Made by a program: the position numbers and the translations under genes. The notes under the pieces are model-generated. The model was not told where the DNA came from, did no database searches, and saw nothing but the letters and a program-made list of their open reading frames with translations. Of a stretch of 64,000 nucleotides of DNA, positions 6,331-62,760 are shown one piece after another. Source of the stretch: Heliocybe sulcata (taxonomy: Eukaryota; Basidiomycota; Agaricomycetes; Gloeophyllales; Gloeophyllaceae); the NCBI GenBank assembly GCA_004369045.1, contig ML213505.1, forward strand, positions 1,175,849-1,239,848, written 5' to 3'. Position 1 is the stretch's first letter. Every line of letters starts with the position of its first letter.

Positions 6331-7833
6331 GCGATTGCTTGTGCGGATGAAAGCTGCAGAGATTGAGCGCTGGAGAACTGATGTAGCAGAAAGGTAGCGA
6401 TAGTGATGTCTAACTAAATGAGAAGATTATGTTGTACGCGGAGGAAGACGGGGAACATATAACTAGGAAAGCGTGGTGGGCATACAAGACCTGCCCATAG
6501 CCCTTATGCTGTTGGCTGCTATGATAAGCGTTCCGAGGGCAATATTCACGGCAAGTGGATACTTGGTGACGGTAGAAATGCATGTTGTTCCGGATTGGCA
6601 TTTCGGAAGTGTTCTGATTCGTGCTGGTAACATATGACGACGATGATTGCCAAGAATAATAAGGTTAGCATCGGCCTTTGTACCATGTCTTACTGCTTCA
6701 GGTATATCCTGGCTCCCGCGCCGTGCTGCCTGCATTCAATGTGCTTCCAAGTTCGAAGATTCCTATGGCGTATTACGACCAAGTGCAGACGATCGGAAAC
6801 AACAGCTGAGTAGAGAGCGTCGCGGAGGTTGAAACCCGTTGAAACGTTCAAGAATGACAGTCACGTGCCATCGCTCCTGCCGCCGGTCACTCCTGCCGCC
6901 GGCTGGCAATTCATTGGCCGTGCATTCTCTCATTTTGAAGTTGGCTTGAATCTTGAGGCTATGGTCGGGTCGACATCTCTGTCCTACTCACCATCGAGCA
7001 CGGCGTCCGACTCTTAATCACTTTGCGCGCTGGCTTGTCGGTAGCGTCTACGATCTCTACCGCTGGAACGGCGCTCCGATTCCGATGGGTCCCACAGCCG
7101 CGAGCAGAATAACGGCAGTGGATAGCAATGTGCATCAAATCGCGCCTACAGGGGCCCATATACTCGACATATCCCAACTGTTATTCCGAGATTTGACATG
7201 TTCATCAGCCATACTCGCGACCTGTCGCATCAGATGACGGGTCTATATCAGTCCTTGGCTTGCTCTCTCTACCTCGGTGCTCGGTACTGTTCTCCTCCCG
7301 TGAGTCCAAGTTAGCTGCACTTTATAGACCGGAGAATGCGGCCAGGTGTGCGCCAGGTGTCAGCACACGAGGCTTTCATATCGGCTCAAGCTATAATCTA
7401 CCCGCGTCTATGGCCGCCTTTCCAGACCGCTTCAAATAGGCTTTGCACAGCTGAAAATATCTGTCCGCTGGTTGCTCCGGCCCATTGGTGATTTGACCGC
7501 GTCTGGAACCCTGGCATGGGAGCGTACACGGGTATTGATCCGAAAGGCAAGGCCATCTCACAATAGCATGTCCTTCTATGGGCACCCAGGGGACCTACTT
7601 TCGGCGTATTACGAGTAAAGGCCCCGCTGATCCTCTTTCATCACCGGCGCTTCACATTCCATGCCTTTTACAGGCACAACACCAGGCTGCGAAGGCAGGA
7701 GGTCACGCGTGTGTATTACTATGAACGGTCTCCATTTTGTATGACCGATGCTTCCTCTGGACGACGTCCCCGTGCCTGCCGCCTTCTTCATCCTGGACGC
7801 CCCTCACTCACCCAGTACACACTTCCGGCCAGC
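6331..7833. other. No gene recognised (1.5 kb)
   Basis: Between the start of the GNAT gene and the start of the 7-helix gene. Several open frames of 60-95 codons occur on both strands, but none shows a signal peptide, conserved motif or exon chain I can recognise. The last part should contain the promoter of the gene at 7834. A decayed gene cannot be excluded. Confidence 0.5.
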
Positions 7834-9200
7834 ATGAGTTCGCCTTTGCCAGTCATTTCTCCAGCGTGGCTGCCTGCCAACGAGACCGCTCTTGACATAT
7901 ACAACGAGCGGACGCTTCTCGATGGAGCTATCATGACGGGAGTAGTCTATGGTGCGCAGGGCTATCCACAGCACCTTCTGACTGATATCAACATACCTGT
8001 GATTGCAGGCATCCACTTCACGATCTTCGTGCAGACTGCATACCTTCTCATGAAAGACCTGCATAGAAAGAGCTCCAGCCAGTTTTTCCTGGCTTACATC
8101 ATCGTGATGTTCATCTTGGGAACTCTCTTCGTCTCGAGCAGTTCTCGGGTAGCGCAAATGACGTTCGTCGACGACCGCAACTACCCAGGAGGGCCAGAGG
8201 CCTGGCAGGAGGCCGCCTTCTCCATCCCAGCCAACCTCCTTGGCAACATCACCTTTACGCTCGCTAACTGGTTAGCCGATGCACTGATGGTAAGTTGGGT
8301 TTTGTTAAGCTTGTTTGATCTCGATGGCACTGCTGGATCCTGACGGAGGATAAATAGATATGGCGGTGCTATATCATCTGGACCGCGCGAACAGGCCGAT
8401 ACGTCTGGTTAATCCTGGCCATACCATGTCTGCTGTGGCTGGCATCGTTCGGTGAGCACTGAACTATCTTAGCCTCCTCTCATGCTAACGCCACACTCAG
8501 CCATGGGCACCCTCCTCCTCACCCAGGTCTCGCAACCAGGCCTTAGCATCTGGTCCGACAGCAGCGTCAACTTCGCTCTAGCCTATTTCTCTATCTCCCT
8601 GACGCTCAATATCCTCACCACGGTCCTCATCCTGGCGCGGCTCATGTACCACCGGCTCGAGGTGACGCGCAGCCTCGGGCATGCGTACGGGACGTACTAC
8701 ACCTCCGTGGCGGCAATGCTCGTCGAGTCTGCGTCGCTCTATGCGGCATGCTCGTTGTTGTTCTTGGTCCCCTATGTTTTGAACCATCCGTTGCAGAATA
8801 TCTTCATGCAGGTGCTCAGTCAAGTACAGGTACGTGCTACATCCCTACCTTCGCTTTCAGTGTGCTCTAATAGCAACGCAACATCACCTAGATCATCGCG
8901 CCCCTCCTCGTCATCTTCCGCGTCGCCTCCGGGCACGGCATCACGTCCACCGCTCTGAGCACGGGCGCGAACCTCAGCTTCGCCACGAACCCCACTCGCC
9001 CCTCCGACCGCACCAGAAGCACACGGGCCCACCAGTCCAACTACAGCACGGAGCTCAGCCACGTCTCCCGCCCGGACCTGATCGTCCACTTCAAGGACAC
9101 GTACAGCGACGGCCATAGCGAGTCGATGCTGACGCCGGTGTCGCAGGACAAGGTGGGGGCAATTGCGGAGAAGGTCGTGGAGGTGAAGGCGGAGCCGTGA
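7834..9200 (+). CDS. Seven-helix membrane protein of the basidiomycete-expanded family
   Basis: Integral membrane protein of unknown function from a family with many copies per genome in mushrooms and polypores. Start MSSPLPVISPAW at 7834. The first exon has two hydrophobic helices (ALDGAIMTGVVYGAQGY region and IIVMFILGTLFVSSSSR) and the family landmark TFVDDRNYPGGPEAW, then NITFTLANWLADALM. After an intron the chain continues IWRCYIIWT-like and WLILAIPCLLWLASF, a hallmark of this family (charged IWR before helix 5). Two more exons supply helices 5-7 (FALAYFSISLTLNILTTVLI, VLNHPLQNIFMQVLSQVQ) and a hydrophilic cytosolic tail of about 80 residues ending at TGA 9198-9200. A relative lies at 16387-17608 on the other strand. 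Family membership is clear; function is not known. Confidence 0.82.
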
Positions 9201-16386: not shown

Positions 16387-17608
16387 TCAAATCTCCTCCG
16401 GATCCTTTGGCTTGCTACGAGCACTACAAGTGTCCGTCCTTGTTTCTCTAGTTACTAAGACGATCGCAGCATTGTTCCCTGGCGGCCGAATGAGAGTATT
16501 CGCTTCCGCTGAAATTGCAGCGTCATAGCGGCTGAAACCTAGCCGGACTTGCATCCATAATAACGTCGGGGTAATGCTGATGACTATGCATGGAGGCGTT
16601 AAGTCGCATGGCGAGCTGAAGTCGGCAAGTTGCTTACTCTGAGTCATGGGTCCGGTAACCACATCTTGCGCATTGTTACCCGTGCCATACAGGCCTAGCG
16701 TGATGACGAGTGCGATCGGGTACAGAATGCACGATTCGATCGTATTCGCAAGCAGTGCACGATAGAACGAAACGTCTGCTTCTTGTATGGCTTTCCGGAG
16801 ACGGCGCTCGGCCTGCCATATCCGATGCACTATGAGGGCTGTGATGATCAGGTTCGTGGCCAGGGACAGGGAAAATGCCGCAGGCGCCAGCTTTTTGACC
16901 GATTCCGCGAATGCGGTTTCACCAGGGGCAAGCCGAGAAAATTCCCAGACCAACAGGCCCCATGTTACTAATAGCGGTGAGCAGTAACATTTCCAACTAC
17001 GGCGGTGCCTACATACCGATAGTGGCCAAGACTGTCATAATGGGCGGGATGATAATCCAATGGTTGGAATGATACATGACGTGCAAGCGATATATCTTGT
17101 GGAGGCAGCGGCATGAGCAAGAGCCCTAACAAAATATTGATGATATTACCCACCAGTAAGCTGTCGCCCACAATAATGTTGACACCATATAAACTTTTAT
17201 TCATCAAGTTCAACCACGCCGATTTATCATTGAAGTAGCTTTCTGGGGTAGCAGGTCGTACATCGAAGAAGCCTGCTTCTAAAGACTGGATCGTGCCTCC
17301 CTTGAGATCCGCAGGTCCGACGGTCAGCAATGTAGCCTGCAGTCTATGGTCAGGCAACTCACGAGATGTGCTGTGGAGATGCAGAACATAAGCCATATAG
17401 TGCCCATGATAATCTTGTTGCTTCGAGTGTACCTCCGGCTGCTGGTCCGGAATATGTACAGACATGCAATGAAGAGGACGAGGTAGATGCCTACCACAGA
17501 TCAATTTTCCAGGCTACCAATGAAGGTGTGTCCAAACTCACCATAGAGTCCGGCCTCGAAGACCGTGCCAAATAGGTGGCCCTGCGCGACGTTGAGCTGG
17601 CCAGTCAT
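16387..17608 (-). CDS. Seven-helix membrane protein, second family member
   Basis: Same large basidiomycete family as the gene at 7834, on the opposite strand. The first exon (MTGQLNVAQGHLFGTVFEAG, LYG; start 17608) is spliced to IYLVLFIACLYIFRTSSRRY, giving helices 1-2. The following exons read TRSNKIIMGTIWLMFCISTA, then a loop (FDVRPATPESYFNDKSAWLN) and LYGVNIIVGDSLLV, which is the conserved start of helix 4. The last large exon has LVWEFSRLAPGETAF, AAFSLSLATNLIITALIVHR, IWQAERRL and TIESCILYPIALVITLGLYG, and a 60-residue hydrophilic tail ending KPKDPEEI. The ESxxLY-type motif in helix 6 is shared with the relative at 7834 (ESASLYAACSL). Function unknown. Some splice sites in the middle are not certain. 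Confidence 0.75.
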
Positions 17609-56968: not shown

Positions 56969-58097
56969 CTAGAAAACAGGCCGCCGCTTCCGACCTGTAT
57001 ACTGACTGTCTTTTGGTACATCCTCCTTGCCGCGACGGCGATACAACTGGCGGAGGAAAGCAATTAACATAATATCGATGATGCAAGAGGGAGAGGCTCA
57101 CATCTTTCTTCCGCAGAATCCAATCCTTATCCTTGATACCCTTCTTCTTAGTATTCTTCCGCCTCTTCTCTCTTTCTCTCCGTCTCTCAAACTTCGCCTT
57201 TTCCTCGGCTTCTTCTTCCCCTTCGCCTTCCAGACCCTTAGGAACTTGTTGGCCACCGCCACTGCCCACGAATAAACTCAGGAAGACTTTCCTGGCCTTA
57301 TTTGAATTTGGGTAGTCGACAACCACACCCCCTCCGAAGCCTGCCCTTTGAGCAATTGATGTTATGAGCTGAATTTGGTCGTCAGAGGTAGGGTAAAATT
57401 GCAGAATGGCTCGCGAAGGATTGCGTAGAGCGGAGTGGAGTGTCGTGAAGAAGCGTGTCAGGCGGTGCGGTGGGGAGGATGAAGGATGACTTGTTTCGGC
57501 ATTGAGCAGCCACTGGATGACGGATATGCTACATAGACGTGTCTGTGAGTGGGGGAGTCGGAACGTGACAAGCTCTAGCACACCTTATTGCGCCGTCAAA
57601 ACTACCTGGTCGGAAACCAAAACCCTGTCCAATGTCTTGCAGGAAGAGGTCGCCCTCAACCTCCCTTTCCAGAGCCACCTCTCCGCACAAAAACAGCAAA
57701 CTTAGAGACGTTGGGTCGGATGACATGTTCTGTGCTCACCTAGCATGCTGGGTGAAATATCGACGCCTACCCACGTATGCCCCTCCTCTTCCAGTATCTC
57801 TCCAGATAGCCCGGACCCACATCCTATGTCGAGCAGGAGTGCAGGTTGGTCCGGAGGAAGGTTGAGTAGTTCGAGGGCTCGATAGGTCATCTCGGCCTGA
57901 ATTTGCTGGATACGGGAGCTGTGAGAGGACTCTCGATAAGAACAGGAACCTTCTCTCCCGTTGTCAGACTCACTTCTGCGTATACTTTTTCGCCTCGATG
58001 TCCCCATAATACTGGCGACAATAGATCAACGACTGCTTCCGGGAAGGCACATCGAGCTCACAATCTCTGGGGGTGCTTGGAGTTCTGGTCTTGACAT
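56969..58097 (-). CDS. BUD23: 18S rRNA (guanine-N7)-methyltransferase BUD23
   Basis: SAM-dependent methyltransferase that modifies G1575 of 18S rRNA with Trm112 during small-subunit export. Start [12 protein letters not shown] (58097), spliced to [13 protein letters not shown] and [20 protein letters not shown], the family's N-terminus. The SAM-binding motif is [20 protein letters not shown], then [13 protein letters not shown]. Next exons read [20 protein letters not shown] and PGSFDGAI, then [20 protein letters not shown] and [20 protein letters not shown], then [20 protein letters not shown]. The C-terminus is basic ([35 protein letters not shown]) and ends GRKRRPVF, a typical nucleolar localisation tail; TAG at 56969-56971. 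Seven or so exons. Convergent with BCS1 (130 bp apart). Confidence 0.93.
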
Positions 58098-60725: not shown

Positions 60726-62045
60726 ATGGCCGACAACAGAGGCGAAGCGCGTCGCACTGATGTCCTCGCGAAAGAACGGGACCGTATGCGGCAAGAGTAT
60801 GAACGACAGAAGCAAACATTGATCAACGAAACTGAGAAAGCTCGTCCTTCAAACAACAAATTCGTTGGTCAGAATGACTCAATGGAAGACTCTTTGAAGA
60901 AGAGTACGGTGGGCTTGGTCCGGCTGGAGGACTTCCAGCAAAGGCGGAAGGAGTTGGAAGAAGCCAAGGCTCGTGAGGCGGCTAGGACGAATGAGCTCAA
61001 GTATGTTTCTGCTATCTATGCATATACCGCCTTTTGCATATGGCTCTGTTGCTGTGTCGTAGGAAGATTTCTTACAGGACGTGGAGTATTTGTTTAGGGA
61101 TGAGCAGAAGAAAGTGAAGAAGCGGAAGAAGACTGCGAAATCGACATTGTCGTTCGCTATGGATGACGATGGGACAGAAGACGGCACGCCCACGCCAGCT
61201 GAAGACTCGGGTAGTGAACAGCCATCTGGTAAACGTTCCAAGTTCCGGAAGAATCCAGACGTCGATACTTCTTTCTTACCTGACCGAGACCGGGAGGAAG
61301 CTGAGCGGCGGGAAAGAGAACGACTCCGGCAGGAGTGGCTGAAGCGGCAGGAAGAGATGAAGCAAGAGGAAATCGAGATCACCTATTCATACTGGGATGG
61401 TACCGGCCATAGAAAGAGCGTAGTCGTAAGTTTTACCGGTTCTGTGGCCAGGTGAAGTAGCTGACGTTCCTACTGGGTGGGAACATGACGTTCATACGGC
61501 GCATTGGACGATCTATATCTGTAGTGCAAGAAAGGGGATGATATTGCTAGCTTCTTGGGCAAGTGTAGGCAGCAGTTTCCGGAGTTGCGTGGGGTTAGCG
61601 TGGATAACTTGATGTACATCAAGGCAAGTAACTGTTTACATGACAGCTGCGTATATACTGATGTTTTTCTTGCAGGAGGATCTCATTGTACCGCACGTGC
61701 GTATGCCAATAGCCGAGCGGAGTGACTGTCTGACTCGATAGATCCGGTAGCATTACACCTTCTACGACTTCATCATCAACAAAGCTCGAGGGAAGTCAGG
61801 GCCCTTGTTCAACTTCGATGTGCATGACGATGTTCGCTTGCTCGCGGACGCGACCAAGGAGAAGGACGAATCGCATGCGGGTAAAGTAGTGGAACGCAGC
61901 TGGTACAACAAAAACAAGCATATATTCCCAGCTTCCAGATGGGAGGTACGTGCAATTCACCTCATCGACTTGTGGCAGTCTGACTTTCGAGCCCGGTTAG
62001 GTCTATGATCCAGAGAAGACTTACGGGAAATACACGATCGCTTAG
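60726..62045 (+). CDS. XAP5: XAP5/FAM50 family nuclear protein
   Basis: Nuclear protein of the XAP5 family (human FAM50A), associated with the spliceosome and circadian regulation in other eukaryotes. Start [20 protein letters not shown], followed by a long charged helix ([20 protein letters not shown]) and [39 protein letters not shown], the usual N-terminal block. Then [14 protein letters not shown] and [40 protein letters not shown], and [19 protein letters not shown], the start of the XAP5 domain. Further exons give [60 protein letters not shown] and [20 protein letters not shown]. End [13 protein letters not shown] at 62043-62045. Seven or so exons. Complete. Confidence 0.93.
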
Positions 62046-62368: not shown

Positions 62369-62581
62369 TTAAGCTCGCCGGTACGGGTTAACCAGCGGTA
62401 TGTCACGCCAATATGGATCGTACGGAACGGCGTCCTCTCTCTGGGGCCAGATCCCGTCCATATGGCGCGCCCCCTTCGGGGTCGACCAGGTCACGACGGT
62501 AGGGATCGGCAGGTTTCTCGCTAGGATTGCGCCGATACGGCGAGGCAGCATCTGTATCGATAAGGTCACGCCGATAAGGCT
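62369..62581. repeat. Degenerate tandem repeat of about 39 bp (PYRRD units)
   Basis: Six copies of a 36-42 bp unit on the minus strand, each with a core CCNTAYCGNCGNGAC or close variant. The first four are in the frame of the small secreted gene; the last two are in another frame. DNA-level identity between units is modest, while the PYRRD core and spacing are kept. Confidence 0.6.
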
Positions 62582-62706
62582 CGTCTGAGGACCGTCTGAG
62601 TATGAGGTGCGTCAAGCATCCATCGCTCTTACGCACCTCGAGCAGGGATAGCCATGACTACTGAGACAGCACTCAGGAAGAGATACAAGATTTTTGAGGA
62701 TAGCAT
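62403..62706 (-). CDS. Small secreted repeat-peptide precursor (Kex2-processed type)
   Basis: Predicted 83-residue secreted precursor in two exons; no known family. Exon 1 (62706-62637) reads MLSSKILYLFLSAVSVVMAI then PAR: a good signal peptide. A 52-nt intron (62636-62585; donor GTGCGTAAG, acceptor TCCTCAG) leads to exon 2, DEPYRRDLIDTDAASPYRRN, PSEKPADPYRRDLVDPEGGA and PYGRDLAPERGRR, ending SVRSILA. It contains four units of 12-13 residues, each with PYRR (or PYGR) followed by an Asp/Asn-rich spacer. RR pairs are typical Kex2 cleavage sites, so short acidic peptides ending in PY(RR) could be released. A TATAAAAG box lies at 62753-62760, 47-54 bp upstream of the start. Two further units (about 62369-62460, PYWRD and NPYRRA) lie in another frame beyond the stop. 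The gene and its function are inferred from sequence only. Confidence 0.6.
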
Positions 62707-62752
62707 GTGAGTAGTGGTGAAGTTTTAGCGCGGTTGGCTCCCTCATCAGTCG

Positions 62753-62760
62753 CTTTTATA
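62753..62760 (-). promoter_or_regulatory. TATA box of the repeat-peptide gene
   Basis: TATAAAAG on the minus strand, 47-54 bp before the ATG at 62706. Spacing fits a short 5' UTR. Confidence 0.5.

Follow-up and report, generated by a model that had tools for sequence, protein, structure and literature searches.

A probable two-exon gene for a secreted Kex2-processed repeat protein beside XAP5 in Heliocybe sulcata

The 3′ end of an XAP5 gene of the basidiomycete Heliocybe sulcata, together with its last intron, lies at 61751-62045 on the plus strand (Pfam PF04921, E 6.8e-26), and a short tyrosine-containing repeat runs convergent with it on the minus strand. Does this repeat belong to a gene for a secreted peptide precursor? 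We addressed the question within a 64,000-nt stretch of contig ML213505.1, referred to here as the window. A sequence-only reading of this DNA had proposed a secreted, spliced, Kex2-type precursor, and that proposal is supported by our sequence tests and by those published architectural criteria that were applied. The locus is likely to hold a small gene of two exons whose product is a secreted Kex2-processed repeat protein (KEP); the gene is probably real and an ordinary member of a known, common fungal class.

Start, signal peptide and intron

On the minus strand, 62706-62403 encodes an 83-residue precursor when translated: the frame opens with an ATG and a signal-peptide-like stretch and, past a 52-nt intron, continues in a second exon. 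The box, signal peptide, 52-nt intron and repeat units described in the sequence-only reading are all present on this strand at the places it had given. The TATA-box-like sequence TATAAAAG occupies 62753-62760 (minus strand), ~47 bp 5′ of the ATG, and its distance to the ATG is sensible. A pattern search of the window found this 8-mer once, against 0.84 matches expected by chance, and because of that expectation we place little weight on it.

The coding part of exon 1 (62637-62706, minus strand) translates to the signal-peptide-like MLSSKILYLFLSAVSVVMA followed by IPAR. The predicted signal peptide itself (62650-62706, minus strand) is likely cut after VMA: over residues 1-23 of the precursor, the Kyte-Doolittle mean of a 12-residue stretch peaks at 2.6, and VMA/I offers a small −3/−1 pair. 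These calls come from hydropathy and the −3/−1 rule, a crude filter rather than SignalP, which 30 of the 2333 ATGs in the window pass. When random 250-nt upstream sequences were set before the real repeat, an in-frame signal-peptide-like start arose in 13 of 4000 trials (12 directly and 2 via an intron, one trial being counted in both).

Splice-site inspection identified a phase-1 intron of 52 nt (62585-62636, minus strand; GTGCGT...CCTCAG), similar in size to the last XAP5 intron, which measures 55 nt (61946-62000; GTACGT...CTGAC...TTAG). Its donor is a full GTRNGT. Branch-like CTCAT and TTGAC sequences occur 18 and 27 nt before the acceptor end, respectively; neither is an ideal CTRAY branch site, and this counts against the gene model. 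If left unspliced, the frame from the ATG at 62706 ends after 25 residues. Splicing had been read from the letters as joining CGA-G to AC-GAG in phase, and translation confirmed this phase-1 junction (CGA G/AC GAG). The coding part of exon 2, stop codon included, then extends over 62403-62584 (minus strand), where translation gives four P-Y-x-R units and the in-frame end SVRSILA. An alternative acceptor 33 nt downstream would create an 85-nt intron, keeping the main frame and skipping unit 1. Another, 11 nt upstream, would create a 41-nt intron and read the other frame; it was rejected as the main acceptor, units 1-4 then being out of frame. In exon 2, this other frame has no stop for 80 codons (62369-62611, minus strand), running from before the first acceptor to a TAA after NPYRRA and overlapping the main frame.

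The repeat and the variation among its units

In the main frame, the precursor units read DEPYRR, DLIDTDAASPYRR, NPSEKPADPYRR and DLVDPEGGAPYGR. Motif searches placed PYRR, a Kex2-type site, in unit 1 (62568-62579), unit 2 (62529-62540) and unit 3 (62493-62504), all on the minus strand, while unit 4 (62454-62465, minus strand) carries a degenerate, monobasic PYGR; intact PYRR sites in the main frame therefore number only three. Units 5-6, found by translation and motif search in the next reading frame (62369-62434, minus strand), read DAVPYDPYWRD and IPLVNPYRRA, then TAA. The P-Y-x-R codons start at 62579, 62540, 62504 and 62465 in the one frame and at 62416 (PYWR) and 62386 (PYRR) in the next, a single alanine standing between the PYRR of unit 6 and the TAA, and the spacings between successive units are 39, 36, 39, 49 and 30 nt. 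The two further units in another frame had been described in the sequence-only reading. Its unit length of 12-13 residues applies to the first four units, with spacings of 49 and 30 nt from there onward, and its description of the units as PYRR-containing applies to units 1-3, the PYGR of unit 4 not being dibasic.

The six P-Y-x-R units fall within ~205 nt. To gauge chance, the whole window was shuffled 200 times (first-order Markov) and P[YFW]xR motifs on the same strand were counted per 260 nt: the densest such stretch held three motifs in 35 shuffles, two in 163 and one in the remaining 2. This null errs somewhat on the low side, because the window holds 74 of these motifs and the shuffles average 50.7. 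For the degenerate DNA pattern CCNTAYNGNCG, 2.8 sites are expected in the window and 13 are present, 6 of which lie within the repeat. In a motif-free comparison, the best 36-nt self-match of the exon was 25/36, and none of 300 mononucleotide shuffles exceeded 23/36. Among offsets of 30-129, only 39 and 75 reached 22/36; both are multiples of three, two offsets being a small sample. No other stop-free stretch of at least 45 residues in any of the window's six frames has at least three KR/RR sites after the same dipeptide. Three PYRR were never reached in 20,000 shuffles of the mature protein, a test that ignores how repeats arise and on which we place no weight.

Differences among the units are concentrated at third codon positions. 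Over the P-Y-x-R codons of all six units, codon positions 1, 2 and 3 differ in 9, 0 and 42 of 60 comparisons each, a count biased by the choice of units through their motif. Compared without use of the motif, 54 nt at offset 75 gave 4, 3 and 11 differences of 18 at the three codon positions (one-sided Fisher P 0.003), and in the best 36-nt stretches alone the phase signal was weaker (P 0.08 at offset 75 and 0.35 at offset 39). Among units 1-4, the differences by main-frame position were 3, 0 and 19 of 24. An exact permutation over the four codon columns returned P 0.025, which we do not count as evidence because the same motif had picked the units.

These data bear on whether the locus could be a non-coding, GC-rich minisatellite that is open in one frame by chance. 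The units are short and of low mutual identity, and a repeat finder reports two weak families only (3 copies of 20 nt and 2 copies of 16 nt), as such a reading would have it. Against it, the offsets of 39 and 75 are multiples of three, the differences are concentrated at third codon positions, and an in-frame signal-peptide-like start is as rare by chance as 13 in 4000, which together make a minisatellite improbable. It has even less to recommend it that both frames are used, acceptors 11 nt apart switching between units 1-4 and units 5-6. The 41-nt intron does lead into a frame open through NPYRRA, and if this dual reading were true, the choice of secreted peptide would be controlled by the splicing of one short gene. 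The variable third positions of the main frame in units 1-4 (3/0/19 of 24) are, however, the second positions of the other frame, which thus shows no constraint in these units, and we regard dual use as extremely improbable. Antisense coding was rejected as well: on the plus strand, the frame that would place the variable positions third in its codons has stops at 62500 and 62575. The repeat is in frame, its variation is coding-like, and its start and intron are plausible.

The frame change after unit 4

Because the motif is kept in units 5 and 6, the repeat probably once continued in one frame through both. Fourteen frame-restoring GT/GC-AG candidate introns of 38-99 nt reach PYRRA; a full GTRNGT donor is found in none of the 14, each cuts out part of the repeat, and a second intron bridging to units 5-6 was rejected on these grounds. 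The likeliest source of the frame change, and the simplest, is a small indel or an assembly error. The sequence-only reading had taken the change of frame to suggest rapid turnover of repeat number, a process that is unneeded when one small indel or assembly error would suffice.

The same observations raise the possibility that a once-working KEP gene is decaying, the frame change after unit 4 having separated units 5-6 from the precursor and given it a non-native tail. This account overlaps with the KEP gene that we favor. It draws on the fact that units 5-6 keep the motif and differ mostly silently, yet lie in the next frame with a stop of their own, and on the lack of a convincing intron joining the frames of units 1-4 and 5-6 (0 of 14 candidates with a full GTRNGT donor). 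On the other hand, the start codon and signal peptide are intact, as are the intron and the first three PYRR sites, loss of units is probably tolerated by repeat precursors, and an assembly error would give the same picture. We consider decay possible, if unlikely.

Predicted peptides and known Kex2-processed precursors

The definition of KEPs goes back to Le Marquer et al. (2019; PMC6339444), and the available portions of three studies provide criteria with which the precursor can be compared. An N-terminal ER signal peptide, called by SignalP, is a criterion common to Le Marquer 2019, Umemura 2020 and Vogt 2022. In silico cleavage at KR/RR yielded IPARDEPYRR, DLIDTDAASPYRR, NPSEKPADPYRR, DLVDPEGGAPYGRDLAPERGRR and SVRSILA, i.e., five fragments once the predicted signal peptide is removed, where Le Marquer 2019 calls for at least four fragments of at least two residues; a further criterion there is a FIMO pattern that takes in at least three fragments and covers at least 15% of the protein (PMC6339444). 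Umemura 2020 specifies at least three tandem repeats of at least eight residues between Kex2 sites (PMC7329392), and the trimmed fragments ahead of the last site measure 8-20 residues. With its low unit identity, the precursor may fall short of that survey's 40-residue seed score of >0.6. In Vogt 2022, one fragment must be similar to at least two others, with a cut-off of at least 40% for fragments under 20 residues (PMC9769878). When the five fragments (f0 to f4, in order) were compared by blastp-short, with BLAST settings that differ from theirs, f0, f1 and f2 each matched at least two others (45-100% identity over 4-11 residues). Mutual matches among these three were 67-100% over 4-9 residues; f1 and f3 also matched, at 45%, with f3 too long for that cut-off. 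Aligning f0-f2 from their right ends without gaps gives identities of only 4/10 to 5/12.

If the precursor is handled as other KEPs are, it would enter the ER via its signal peptide, Kex2 would cleave behind each PYRR and behind the RR close to the C-terminus, and the arginines would be trimmed by a Kex1-type carboxypeptidase. Processing of this kind would release IPARDEPY, DLIDTDAASPY, NPSEKPADPY and a longer C-terminal piece, so that the KEP products would be linear peptides of ~8-11 residues with PY ends. The PY(R)R end is constant and the peptide bodies are variable; the PY end is therefore probably the site of recognition or maturation, and the products are probably linear extracellular peptides recognized by, or matured at, that end. 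Secretion, Kex2 cutting, trimming to PY ends and an extracellular role are what we infer from this layout, and our best guess is that the predicted peptides serve in signalling or interaction with other organisms and not in housekeeping.

A conserved tyrosine in each unit could also point to an ustiloxin-like cyclized RiPP (dikaritin) precursor, in which that residue would be used for cyclization. Paired HxxHC motifs are the mark of DUF3328/UstYa proteins. Our scan, a motif search without a profile, found 4 isolated matches and no such pair in the six frames of the 64-kb window, which on one side extends just ~1.2 kb beyond the gene. A signal peptide, Kex2 sites and a tyrosine per unit are what a dikaritin precursor would have, as do the Y-rich KEP types; set against this, a DUF3328 gene is recorded near 103 of 1680 Basidiomycota KEPs (available text of PMC7329392). 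We judge a dikaritin precursor very improbable.

Among described precursors, several resemble the present KEP candidate in part. The available text of Vogt et al. (2022) reports peptides confirmed in mushrooms, e.g., pyro-QIPAELPTKSINGNIEPY from Coprinopsis cinerea KEP 497993 (PMC9769878). That protein is likewise a short secreted precursor with dibasic sites, and one of its peptides, confirmed by mass spectrometry, ends in ...NIEPY, resembling the PY ends predicted here; the comparison is by named peptides only, not by repeat or alignment (PMC9769878). In contrast to KEP 497993, the units here are 12-13 residues long and end in PYRR, and none of the fragments starts with glutamine.

For KEP type G-1/P-2 (#7), the genera listed are mostly mushroom-forming. 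By description, this type is alike in being tyrosine-rich, often with aspartate nearby, and it is the most widespread type, with 64 proteins in 49 genera at 1.03 per strain (single-copy), in the available portion of the survey (PMC7329392). We take its tyrosine richness as a suggestive link to the present gene.

The repeat motif of Laccaria bicolor MiSSP8 is DWRR. This string does not occur in the 4 papers matched on MiSSP8 and KEX2. MiSSP8, treated in PMC7329392 and PMC7105643, and the basidiomycete KEPs of XSDW type (PMC6339444; all in the portions available) share with the present gene a repeated secreted unit and an aromatic residue directly before the dibasic site; compared by description, theirs is aspartate-tryptophan, whereas ours is proline-tyrosine. 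Ascomycete alpha-factor-type pheromone precursors also combine a signal peptide, repeats and Kex2 sites. These are marked by a repeated Ste13 XA/XP signature after the Kex2 sites, which the present gene lacks: the residues following its dibasic sites are DL, NP, DL and SV, with XP at 1 of 4. Among the matches listed by a literature search with the motif strings, none deals with fungal peptides by title, and in the available text of PMC7329392, both occurrences of the string PYRR belong to the genus name Pyrrhoderma in Table 2.

Neither the precursor nor the other frame matched any Pfam family at E values up to 10, and Rfam had no match in the window at gathering thresholds. For the 83-residue protein, 47 pattern matches in viral contigs and 482 in genome contigs were obtained, none of which was confirmed by tblastn. 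The XAP5 exon, run as a control, gave 4 and 59 pattern matches in viral and genome contigs, respectively, again with none confirmed. Because the XAP5 exon also matched nothing there, the empty precursor searches say nothing on conservation or uniqueness.

Farther from the repeat, Pfam identified genes for a ribosomal S13-family protein, a methyltransferase fragment, a BCS1-like AAA protein and a sodium:solute symporter; Vac_ImportDeg, JmjC, DUF726, OGG_N and NPR2 were among the other domains in the window, whose gene content is in keeping with a fungus. Of 30 chosen open frames, 12 had no Pfam match at E 0.01. The methyltransferase-like fragment (57702-58022, minus strand; PF13649, E 3.4e-6) is a single open frame whose match is confined to the front of the domain. 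Four open frames at 16390-17513 (minus strand) and 7567-8955 (plus strand) encode hydrophobic-looking proteins without a convincing Pfam match, one of them with a TipE match below the cut-off; by eye, these proteins resemble multi-segment membrane proteins.

The gene is probably a further case of a described class, since KEPs number in the thousands: 7878 were counted in 1345 of 1461 strains in the available text of Umemura 2020 (PMC7329392). The functions of the class are mostly unknown, and six kep knockouts displayed no phenotype in the available portion of Vogt et al. (2022; PMC9769878). Alone, the present gene leaves the picture of the KEP class unchanged. If expressed, it would add one more small secreted peptide precursor to that class, and the idea that PY-ended peptides are a shared mushroom signal is one that can be tested with existing methods.
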